This document shows, piece by piece, positions 50,484-64,000 of a DNA stretch of 64,000 nucleotides (positions are counted from its first letter, which is position 1; each line of letters opens with the position of its first letter). The notes beneath the pieces are model-generated. The model was not told where the DNA came from and made no database searches. It saw nothing but the letters and a program-made list of their open reading frames with translations. Location: positions 1 through 64,000 of the forward strand of contig JAJCXK010000071.1 of assembly GCA_029263475.1 (NCBI GenBank). The letters run 5' to 3'. This DNA is from Candidatus Nitrosopumilus sp. (GTDB lineage Archaea > Thermoproteota > Nitrososphaeria > Nitrososphaerales > Nitrosopumilaceae). The position numbers and the translations under genes are program-made.

Positions 50484-51044
50484 ATGACTCAAACAAAACC
50501 TATAATTGCAATAGTTAACGTTGTGGCTTCTGCTACCATTGAGCAAAAGCTGGATCTTGTAGATATAACAAAAAAATTCCCCGCAGTTGAGTATCATCCA
50601 GAACAATTCCCTGGTGCGGTTTTCAGATTAAAGAATCCTAAAACTGCTACACTACTTTTTGGTTCTGGAAAAATGGTCTGTACCGGGGCAAAATCTCAGG
50701 AGTTGGCTGAGACTGCTGTATTTGAAGTGGTGAAAATATTGCGAAAAGGTAAAATAAAGATCAAAAATGATCCCATTGTTTCAATACAAAATATTGTGTC
50801 CTCGATCAATCTTGGAGGAAAGGTTAACTTAGAACAAGCAGCTAGAACTCTTCCAAGAAGCATGTATGAGCCTGAGCAATTCCCTGGACTAATTCACAGA
50901 ATGCTTGATCCTAAAACCGTAATTCTGATTTTTGCATCTGGAAAACTAGTTTGTGTTGGTGCAAAGCTTGAGAAAGATGTGCATCGCTCAGTAAATCAAA
51001 TTCATGCTTTGCTTGAAGAAAAAGATCTGATGGTTTACGAATAG
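50484..51044 (+). CDS. tbp: TATA-box-binding protein
   Basis: Two TBP repeats (YHPEQFPGAVFRLKNPKTATLLFGSGKMVCTGAKS / YEPEQFPGLIHRMLDPKTVILIFASGKLVCVGAK). Confidence 0.96.
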   Translation: MTQTKPIIAIVNVVASATIEQKLDLVDITKKFPAVEYHPEQFPGAVFRLKNPKTATLLFGSGKMVCTGAKSQELAETAVFEVVKILRKGKIKIKNDPIVSIQNIVSSINLGGKVNLEQAARTLPRSMYEPEQFPGLIHRMLDPKTVILIFASGKLVCVGAKLEKDVHRSVNQIHALLEEKDLMVYE

Positions 51045-57517: not shown

Positions 57518-57727
57518 CTAATCCAGATCCTCTTTTGCATATTTGACAAACTGACTGACTCGTTGCTCAAAGTCTCCTTCGAGGATTTCTTCAAAAATCT
57601 TGCAAAGTACGTGACGTAGAGTCCTGGTGTATTTTTCCCTGGTCTCCTTGGCCTTGATTCCATGATGAAACATCTCTAGGGGGCTTTCCTTGCCTATCCT
57701 TTGGAATTCTTCTCTTGTTATCTTCAT
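57518..57727 (-). pseudogene. Probable N-terminal fragment of a tyrosine recombinase/integrase
   Basis: MKITREEFQRIGKESPLEMFHHGIKAKETREKYTRTLRHVLCKIFEEIL...FVKYAKEDLD resembles thaumarchaeal integrase N-terminal domains; no catalytic domain follows. Confidence 0.45.
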
Positions 57728-58011
57728 GTTTTCACTCTTTCTTGGCTGTGGAACTACAAAAAGGGACACTAGAGGGATGGACCGGATGGTGTCTGTGACT
57801 TGCAAGAGATGGACCGTGCAGTTTTTTCTCCAATTGTTATTTTTTGTTGTCTGGAAACCGTCATTATTTTTCTACGTCTTCTAAATGCAGTTACATCTTG
57901 AAAAAGTTTTCTTATGTATATTTTTGGCTCAAATTTGATTGGGAACACAATGTGTATTGGGATATAGTTAGGGCGTTGATTAATGCACCCACGTGGAAGA
58001 TCTAAAAAAAT

Positions 58012-58213: not shown

Positions 58214-58391
58214 TCAGATATGCATAAATAGATAATATTATTTGAGATGAAATTAGGTTTCATCAATGGATGCCAACAGATGTCATGCTTGTGGGAGAAC
58301 CTTCTATGATGGCATGGACACATACTGCTCCTTTCAGTGCAGTTTTCTTGCGTCAACGACAAAGAGAAAATTTTATCATAAAAAGGAACTA
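58214..58391 (+). repeat. Left arm of an imperfect inverted repeat (right arm approx. 63826-64000)
   Basis: gatatgcataaatagataatattat and most of the coding region match the reverse complement of the window end. Confidence 0.85.
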
Positions 58392-58397
58392 AAATAA
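58266..58397 (+). CDS. 43-aa zinc-finger microprotein (MDANRCHACGRTFYDGMDTYCSFQCSFLASTTKRKFYHKKELK); inverted paralog at 63820-63957
   Basis: Manual translation; CxxC...CxxxC; near-identical reverse-complement copy in the same window. Confidence 0.7.
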   Translation: MDANRCHACGRTFYDGMDTYCSFQCSFLASTTKRKFYHKKELK

Positions 58398-60281: not shown

Positions 60282-60485
60282 ATGGGTGGCTGTTCAAACC
60301 AGTGTCTGAAACATAATGCAGTAAGACCTGGCAAAACTGGGTCGAGATATCAAGTCGGTCAGAAGTACTGTACTCACTGTGTATTGTTTGTTGAATGGGA
60401 TGGAATGCATTGTCCCTGCTGTCATTTGAAACTGAAGACTAGTTCGAGGAACCGCCGCTACAAGACGGACGTCAAGCGGATTTAA
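60282..60485 (+). CDS. Small zinc protein, tandem paralog A
   Basis: RYQVGQKYCTHCVLFVEWDGMHCPCCHLKLK. Confidence 0.7.
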   Translation: MGGCSNQCLKHNAVRPGKTGSRYQVGQKYCTHCVLFVEWDGMHCPCCHLKLKTSSRNRRYKTDVKRI

Positions 60486-60579: not shown

Positions 60580-60777
60580 ATGGCCTGCAATGACCAGCAC
60601 AACCGATACAAGGTTTCAAAGCCGTATGGCGGCACAAGATACGGCAAAGGCCAAAAGTATTGCAGTACGTGCGCTGTGTTCATGAAGTGGGATGGCGTAA
60701 GATGTCCGTGCTGCAACTACAATCTAAAGTACAGTCCGAGAAAATGCAGCACTAAGATTGGGGTTCATCGATTTTAG
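60580..60777 (+). CDS. Small zinc protein, tandem paralog B
   Basis: RYGKGQKYCSTCAVFMKWDGVRCPCCNYNLK. Confidence 0.7.
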   Translation: MACNDQHNRYKVSKPYGGTRYGKGQKYCSTCAVFMKWDGVRCPCCNYNLKYSPRKCSTKIGVHRF

Positions 60778-61947: not shown

Positions 61948-62058
61948 TTGCCGAAATGGAACTGCAAACATTGTGACATGGCATTGACAACGATGGATCC
62001 AAACCGATACATGTCATGTCCTCATTGCAAAAAGGCGATGAAACAGATTTCTAATTAG
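61948..62058 (+). CDS. 36-aa zinc-ribbon microprotein (TTG start; LPKWNCKHCDMALTTMDPNRYMSCPHCKKAMKQISN)
   Basis: CxxC...CxxC. Confidence 0.5.
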   Translation: MPKWNCKHCDMALTTMDPNRYMSCPHCKKAMKQISN

Positions 62059-62637: not shown

Positions 62638-62742
62638 ATGGACTATAACAAAAAAGTTCAATACGACTACGACACATTCGATGATTTCGATCATGATCAT
62701 TATGATGATGATTCAGAATCAGAGTATGATTTTGAGGATTAA
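62638..62742 (+). CDS. 34-aa extremely acidic microprotein (MDYNKKVQYDYDTFDDFDHDHYDDDSESEYDFED)
   Basis: ATG-TAA ORF with TATA-like ataatttaaaaatat upstream and a hairpin plus T-tract at the stop. Confidence 0.55.
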   Translation: MDYNKKVQYDYDTFDDFDHDHYDDDSESEYDFED

Positions 62743-62882: not shown

Positions 62883-62906
62883 AAAAAAACTGATTTGAGC
62901 ATCAGT
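62883..62906 (-). terminator. Minus-strand hairpin actgat-gctcaa-atcagt followed by T7; overlaps the stop of 62902-63150
   Basis: 6-bp perfect stem; A7 on plus strand at 62883-62889. Confidence 0.6.
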
Positions 62907-63150
62907 CTTCTTGGTCTAGCAGAATTCCTATCTTCTTGATTGTCATCTCTTCTGCCTTGAGATGTTTTTTCAGAAGGTTCTGATGATCGCGTTTGTGCTT
63001 TTGAAACACTTGTCGCAGTTTTCCCCTGGTCTTTGCATTTTTTAGCTGCTTGTCATAATCGACATGCATCTTTTTTATGCCTTGGCCAAGATCACCCAGA
63101 GTCTTTTTTCCATTGGATGAGACTGCAGTTATGATGGATTTTGATGTCAT
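62902..63150 (-). CDS. 82-aa basic helical protein
   Basis: MTSKSIITAVSSNGKKTLGDLGQGIKKMHVDYDKQLKNAKTRGKLRQVFQKHKRDHQNLLKKHLKAEEM...; track start (TTG 63177) probably too early. Confidence 0.6.
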   Translation of the reverse strand: MTSKSIITAVSSNGKKTLGDLGQGIKKMHVDYDKQLKNAKTRGKLRQVFQKHKRDHQNLLKKHLKAEEMTIKKIGILLDQED

Positions 63151-63252: not shown

Positions 63253-63378
63253 TCACAGTTCTATGCCATGTTTTTCCTTGACATGCAAAACAAAATTGGA
63301 CTTCTTTTTGGTTGTGAAATCACAACATGTGCATTTGAACATTGATTGCTGTCTGGGCGAACCAGTCTTTCTTGCCAT
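63253..63378 (-). CDS. 41-aa C2H2 zinc-finger microprotein (MARKTGSPRQQSMFKCTCCDFTTKKKSNFVLHVKEKHGIEL)
   Basis: C-x2-C-x12-H-x4-H exactly; missing from the ORF track. Confidence 0.65.
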   Translation of the reverse strand: MARKTGSPRQQSMFKCTCCDFTTKKKSNFVLHVKEKHGIEL

Positions 63379-63379
63379 T

Positions 63380-63517
63380 TTACACAAACCTCGCATAGCA
63401 GTAACCGCATCGTCTCATCTTGGAATATGTGCCTAGGGGCTTGCGGCAATTGCCGCAACACGTCACCAGATCCTCGTCTTTTGTGTCATCCAAAACATTT
63501 TCTCTGTATTCTATCAT
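63380..63517 (-). CDS. 45-aa zinc-ribbon microprotein (MIEYRENVLDDTKDEDLVTCCGNCRKPLGTYSKMRRCGYCYARFV)
   Basis: CGNC...CGYC; stop 1 nt upstream of the next ATG. Confidence 0.65.
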   Translation of the reverse strand: MIEYRENVLDDTKDEDLVTCCGNCRKPLGTYSKMRRCGYCYARFV

Positions 63518-63600
63518 TGCCTCTTCTCTCCGCAATCTCTGCATTCGATATCATGATCAAAGAACCTCTCACTGCATTTTTCACATCTGTAGACTGTCAT
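63514..63600 (-). CDS. 28-aa zinc-ribbon microprotein (MTVYRCEKCSERFFDHDIECRDCGEKRQ)
   Basis: CEKC...CRDC; ATGA overlap with the next ORF. Confidence 0.6.
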   Translation of the reverse strand: MTVYRCEKCSERFFDHDIECRDCGEKRQ

Positions 63601-63601
63601 G

Positions 63602-63700
63602 TCACAATGAGTCTCCCGTAATATGGCAGATACACGTGCAGAGATGTAATGTCATTTCTTTCATCCTGTGACCGCAAGCCATGCAGTTAATTATTGTCAT
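63602..63700 (-). CDS. 32-aa Cys/His microprotein (MTIINCMACGHRMKEMTLHLCTCICHITGDSL)
   Basis: CMAC...CTCIC; stop 1 nt upstream of the next ATG. Confidence 0.55.
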   Translation of the reverse strand: MTIINCMACGHRMKEMTLHLCTCICHITGDSL

Positions 63701-63703
63701 TGC

Positions 63704-63784
63704 CTAAACTCCTCTGATATCCCATAGGCGTGAAATGTAGTTAAGGATGCCGATCGACAGTTTGAGAATCTCGTTGATATTCAC
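63704..63784 (-). CDS. 26-aa amphipathic microprotein (GTG start; VNINEILKLSIGILNYISRLWDIRGV)
   Basis: Ends 3 nt before the next ATG; weak start. Confidence 0.3.
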   Translation of the reverse strand: MNINEILKLSIGILNYISRLWDIRGV

Positions 63785-63819
63785 CAATGTGAATTCCAAT
63801 TACGGCCTACACTTGAGGC

Positions 63820-63957
63820 TTATTTCAGATCCTTTTTATGATAAAATTTTCTCTTTGTCGTTGACGCAAGAAAACTGCACTGAAAAGAGCAGTATGTGTC
63901 CGTGCCATCATAGAAGGTTCTCCCACAAGCATGACATCTGTTGGCATCCGTTGACAT
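63820..63957 (-). CDS. 45-aa zinc-finger microprotein (MSTDANRCHACGRTFYDGTDTYCSFQCSFLASTTKRKFYHKKDLK); inverted paralog of 58266-58397
   Basis: Manual translation; near-identical to the other copy. Confidence 0.7.
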   Translation of the reverse strand: MSTDANRCHACGRTFYDGTDTYCSFQCSFLASTTKRKFYHKKDLK

Positions 63958-64000
63958 GACCTGATTTTGTTTCAGATAATATTATCTATTTATGCATATC
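63826..64000 (-). repeat. Right arm of the imperfect inverted repeat, reaching the window edge
   Basis: Reverse complement begins gatatgcataaatagataatattat as at 58214. Confidence 0.85.

Follow-up and report, generated by a model that had tools for sequence, protein, structure and literature searches.

The window analysed here is a stretch of 64,000 nucleotides at the beginning of contig C71 (JAJCXK010000071.1) of Candidatus Nitrosopumilus sp., whose 2.29 Mb assembly consists of 91 contigs and is 95.6% complete with 8% contamination. Near the end of the window, the minus strand carries a compact run of six short open reading frames (ORFs) between positions 63957 and 63253, which we call A to F in reading order. 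ORF A (63820..63957) encodes a zinc-finger-like microprotein of 45 aa with the pattern CxxCGR-x8-YCSxxC followed by FYxKKxL. ORF B (63704..63784) starts with GTG and encodes 26 aa without cysteine. ORF C (63602..63700, 32 aa) contains CMACG...CTCIC, ORF D (63514..63600, 28 aa) the CEKC...CRDC pattern of a mini zinc ribbon, and ORF E (63380..63517, 45 aa) the CGNC...CGYC pattern of a zinc ribbon. ORF F (63253..63378, 41 aa) encodes a single C2H2 zinc finger and belongs to a multi-copy family. All six ORFs are present with the lengths given in a preliminary description of this DNA, and the Cys/His patterns that it reported for five of them are seen in A, C, D, E, and F. The patterns of A, C, D, and E are paired Cys knuckles of a broader Cys/His type, and the canonical CPxCG proline is found in none of them.

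The described junctions were also found: TGA-c-ATG between C and D, an ATGA overlap between D and E, and TAA-a-ATG between E and F, which correspond to spacings of +1, -4, and +1 nt. Together with Shine-Dalgarno (SD) cores on the same strand before each of C to F, this spacing makes the four ORFs a coupled array. AGGAG (63709..63713) lies 8 nt 5' of C, GGAG (63613..63616) 12 nt 5' of D, a second GGAG (63528..63531) 10 nt 5' of E, and GAGGT (63388..63392) 9 nt 5' of F. These cores give modest support, since matches of at least 4 nt occur at approximately 25% of the positions on the array strand. No SD core precedes A or B. A TATA-like box, ATAAATA (63987..63993, minus strand), is located approximately 30 nt 5' of A and is a candidate promoter for the array; no promoter-like box was seen directly 5' of C, D, E, or F. 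ORF B has no Cys or metal motif, no SD core, and no homologue in the loci examined, and it is therefore excluded from the array. It is probably not a gene, or else a leader peptide, so that "about six" zinc microprotein genes become five. If B is not a gene, the gap between A and C is 119 nt, and A may for this reason be a separate unit.

The preliminary description considered such a cluster unlikely to arise by chance, and the motif statistics bear this out. We counted ORFs of 24-60 aa in which C-x2-C is followed by a second half-site of CxC, CxxC, H-x3-5-H, or H-x3-5-C. This strict two-half motif occurs in four array ORFs on a single strand, whereas 3000 dinucleotide shuffles gave at most one. 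ORF A was left out of the count, its site being of the looser form C-x2-C...C-x3-C. Codon-usage scoring was dropped as a coding test because genes that are certain, even F, score like background.

Zinc micro-ORFs are also in excess across the genome. Counting over 1.16 Mb of this genome gave 204 ORFs of 24-80 aa with a Cys motif, about three times more than in shuffled sequence (50-76), and the part of the genome that had not been selected for the presence of F contained 142 against 46-70. The excess was likewise seen in 400 kb of a relative with a closed genome, G055 (72 against 15-30 in shuffles), and none was seen in a 50-kb stretch of E. coli (3 against 2-9). Same-strand runs of at least three motif ORFs occurred four times in the 1.16 Mb versus never in five shuffled sets, and the array in the window is the longest such run within the examined half of the genome. 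Runs on contig C48 contain TAATG and ATGA overlaps, and further overlaps are present on C61 and C81. Members of a single family of microproteins were found beside varying partners. The genome-wide excess and the other coupled runs mark the array as an extreme form of a genome-wide tendency, not as a unique system. The plus strand of the window also holds two members (60282-60485 and 60580-60777) of a large microprotein family with the pattern RYxxGQKYCxxCxxFxxWDGxxCPCCxxxLKxxPR, of which more than 20 distinct matches were found in the sequence examined.

Judged from its sequence, F is certainly a gene. Members of its family are 41 aa long from start to stop, in one case 42, and align from the first to the last codon. 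The consensus MARKxGSPRQQxxFKCxxCDFxSKKHxxLVLHxKExHDIEL is conserved from the initial Met to the terminal IEL. The ligand positions C16, C19, and H32 are invariant, and H37 is present in more than 90% of the members. For the copy in the window, the dN/dS check gave 0.08-0.14 (about 0.1) where dS could be computed, and these codon comparisons show purifying selection on F. The protein has the C-x2-C-x12-H-x3-5-H arrangement and the predicted beta-beta-alpha fold of a C2H2 finger. It passes the Pfam family zf-H2C2_5 with a score of 27.8 (cut-off 27), and its AlphaFold model is strand-strand-helix (E-E-H) with a mean pLDDT of 76, which is moderate confidence; a second model, of 45 aa, reached a pLDDT of 72, also moderate. 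A profile search of the PDB matched C2H2 profiles, including CTCF fingers, and the solved structures nearest to F are eukaryotic C2H2 fingers. No Foldseek match reached E 0.001, as is expected for so short a chain. The finger has basic flanks with a net charge of +6. Matches to PHROG families are weak.

The F family is confined to a narrow group of organisms. Eight copies are present on separate contigs of this genome and seven in G055, and a few further species of the same genus have one copy each. A search of 401 genomes at E 1e-5 detected the family in no other genus of the class. A scan of a genome collection with F gave two matches in metagenome-assembled genomes (MAGs), one of them a Thaumarchaeota archaeon. 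Elsewhere, F stands alone or with other partners. On contig C17 it is preceded by another zinc micro-ORF with an ATGA overlap, and in the window it directly follows E and has no TATA box of its own. The family of the micro-ORF that precedes F on C17 has a member in the window itself at 61948-62058 on the plus strand, a zinc microprotein of 36 aa with a TTG start and the pattern PKWNCKHCDMxxTTMD...CPHCKKxM. Longer proteins with a C-terminal C2H2 finger that is weakly related to F were noticed in six relatives (L029-L034, from G007, G025, G033, G040, G045, and G002); they contain hydrophobic, membrane-like stretches.

ORF A is also a gene, as the conservation of its family indicates. It matched 29 of 101 genomes at E<=1e-3, and about nine loci showed the full-length pattern. 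The nine full-length members share C-x2-CGR-x8-YCS-x2-C with a basic FYxKKxL tail, and C8, C11, C23, and C27 are invariant among them. A second copy of A lies in the window at 58266..58397 on the plus strand, inverted relative to the array, and encodes 43 aa, its start codon being shifted by two codons in frame. The duplicated segment is 239 bp at 89% identity and spans only the gene and approximately 107 nt upstream, with the TATA-like box kept. A 192-bp inverted repeat considered as the ends of a mobile element was thus rejected, because the repeat is limited to A and its upstream region and a single microgene has been copied together with its promoter.

As a unit, the array is not conserved in the relatives searched. 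A search with each micro-ORF recovered families for A and F and no homologue for B, C, D, or E. The Cys/His conservation in homologous loci on which the preliminary description had made its case depend is present in the homologues of A and F, but the order A-C-D-E-F was found in no relative searched. Of the tandem microprotein system that it proposed, the compact coupled run beyond chance stands, and a conserved multi-component system is not supported, the order being seen only here.

The neighbours of the array are a gene for a VOC protein and a TATA-binding protein (TBP) gene. After a gap of 102 nt, F is followed on its own strand by G (62902..63150), which encodes a basic protein of 82 aa. 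G is 82-84% identical in G055 and G018, has a 77% identical copy on contig C29 of this genome, and belongs to no Pfam or PHROG family. It is probably a unit separate from the array. The TBP gene lies beyond the window (C71:64111-64671, or L006:7112-7672, plus strand) and is divergent from A. This back-to-back position is suggestive, but none of the relatives examined shares it; the idea that the array is a conserved neighbour of TBP genes was rejected, as the array is absent from the TBP loci of seven relatives. Two TBP genes lie 13 kb apart on this contig, the one at 64111-64671 and another in the window at 50484-51044. The assembly has 10 TBP-like matches, compared with 1-6 in most relatives, and with 8% contamination some of them may not belong to one cell. 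A very acidic ORF of 34 aa (MDYNKKVQYDYDTFDDFDHDHYDDDSESEYDFED) is located at 62638-62742 on the plus strand of the window, and a 74% identical copy lies near a TBP gene in G022 (L136).

The reading that we favour, and to which we give an even chance, is that an operon encodes single-domain zinc microproteins that would act as nucleic-acid-binding or adaptor regulators and would partly be exchanged with mobile elements. A single archaeal promoter 5' of A would drive transcription of A, C, D, E, and F, and the translation of C, D, E, and F would proceed by SD-dependent, coupled initiation. By analogy with AFV1p06 and Brz, F would most likely bind DNA or RNA, or dock onto another regulator. C, D, and E may be fast-evolving, zinc-ribbon-like companions that were joined to F and A by microgene shuffling, and some of these microgenes may travel on proviruses and integrated elements.

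A possible, though more doubtful, explanation takes the last point further, with the microgenes serving viruses or integrated elements mostly as early or accessory genes and the array being a domesticated or stranded piece of one. Three of the eight F copies (a raw count) are located in provirus- or integrase-bearing regions. Around the copy on C48, coupled zinc micro-ORFs are densely packed along one strand, within a one-strand gene block that has an MCM helicase, a DNA methylase, a nuclease, and a weak terminase match. On C81, a terminase large subunit gene (E 1.7e-34) lies 4 kb away from the F copy, and methylases, ParB, and a weak HNH match are found in the vicinity. The copy on C10 adjoins integrases and a primase-like gene. 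The patchy distribution of F within one genus fits such cargo as well, and AFV1p06-type C2H2 microproteins of crenarchaea are all viral or proviral (PMC3541406). The regions themselves (G000; C48, L124:1963-15978; C81, L127:904-16261; C10, L123:530-8698) include an SNase and have many zinc micro-ORFs among their virus-type genes. With contamination at 8%, the source of some of these contigs may be another population or virus particles, which leaves the sequence relationship of F unchanged. Against the cargo explanation, inspection of the ORFs near the array and on the rest of contig C71 recognised no virus or integrase gene, and the neighbours are those named above. A 95-aa ORF at 57518-57805 that was considered as an integrase remnant matched no family. 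The F profile found no match in IMG/VR, plasmid and phage collections gave no DNA match, and the F copies on C82 and in G055 share a common chromosomal neighbourhood. The hint of mobile elements in the preliminary description thus holds in part, for F paralogs in virus-like regions and not for the array in the window.

It is unlikely that the genes are limited to A and F (and G), with C, D, and E being products of chance or decay, although these three are orphans with background-like codon usage. No homologue of C, D, or E was found in 101 relatives. A search of 96 genomes of the genus with the C-E DNA returned nothing except F and two short matches judged to be chance; the match of D in G002 is a different C2H2 micro-ORF, and that in G157 lies in a frame that is not of zinc type. 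A protein search with E gave insignificant matches only, and its pattern had no match in IMG/VR. Since no homologue exists in these sets, coding is not established by conservation for C-E. However, the 321 bases of C-E contain three motif ORFs, and among 30000 shuffles two occurred in three cases and three never. Each of the ORFs has an SD core and coupled spacing, and comparable runs occur elsewhere in the genome. The motif statistics, SD sites, coupling, and comparable runs argue for C, D, and E as genes.

A role in metallothionein-like metal storage or in metal sensing, in place of nucleic-acid binding, is very improbable. C, D, and E are rich in cysteine (4-5 Cys in 28-45 aa), and the available part of one report ties several Haloferax zinc microproteins to stress adaptation (PMC6562870). 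However, the C2H2 finger of F is of the classical type, both A and F are basic proteins, and the spacing of the ligands would fit structural zinc sites and not metallothionein clusters. The least probable explanation, a broken longer multi-finger protein of which C to F are frameshifted pieces, would account for ORFs in successive frames with one-base junctions but is largely refuted by the ends of F, which coincide with those of free-standing homologues, by an ATG and an SD core for each ORF, and by the lack of a long fused homologue in a DNA search of 96 genomes of the genus.

An operon of zinc microproteins would have counterparts in several known systems, as archaea are known to have a class of small zinc-finger proteins. 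AFV1p06, the closest model for the action of F, comes from an archaeal virus and consists of one C2H2 finger for which DNA binding has been shown (PMC3541406). Set beside F by description, its family likewise consists of archaeal proteins of very small size, with one classical C2H2 finger and flexible tails (PMC3541406). Its members come from viruses and proviruses, and some F copies also lie in such contexts. AFV1p06 belongs to another lineage and lacks the fourth ligand, whereas F has both histidines, is chromosomal at several loci, is multi-copy, and is arrayed here with other zinc microproteins. The report on AFV1p06 found no homologue of its family in Thaumarchaeota (PMC3541406).

Brz, the closest model for the ribbon-type members, is a small zinc-finger protein needed for high bop transcript levels, according to the available portion of its report (PMC2253796). 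There, Brz and other small CPxCG proteins appear as very short zinc fingers that are abundant in archaea and often unannotated, and some of them adjoin genes that they regulate; they differ in being of the CPxCG zinc-ribbon type, and that portion describes no tandem coupled arrays (PMC2253796). In Haloferax volcanii, 49 of approximately 400 micro-proteins contain two C(P)XCG motifs, and the phenotypes of zinc micro-proteins include stress adaptation, biofilm formation, and swarming (PMC6562870, PMC11241148). These proteins are mostly of the C4 type and from another phylum, and no array is described in the parts of the two reports available (PMC6562870, PMC11241148). The surroundings of F on C48, C81, and C10 are similar to integrated mobile elements of Thaumarchaeota, namely tailed proviruses and cryptic elements that carry terminase, MCM helicase, and integrase genes (PMC6563490). 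The accessible text of that report mentions no C2H2 microprotein array (PMC6563490), and the array in the window lies in no recognisable element. A limited literature search found no coupled array of unlike members, no thaumarchaeal 41-aa C2H2 family, and no presence of such a family in provirus-like regions.

A broader proposal, which we regard as speculative and rather improbable, is that Nitrososphaerota possess fast-turnover, combinatorial cassettes of zinc microproteins in coupled arrays, exchanged with their viruses, and that the members modulate the expanded TBP/TFB transcription machinery to the benefit of host or virus, the array here lying back to back with a TBP paralog. Genes of 28-45 codons fall below annotation size limits, so this layer of archaeal genes is mostly unseen. 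The window indicates that zinc microgenes can form coupled arrays, and that one C2H2 family of 41 aa has expanded in a small number of species and has members in provirus-like regions as well. The window provides a testable set of minimal single-finger candidates for the study of transcription regulation in archaea and their viruses.
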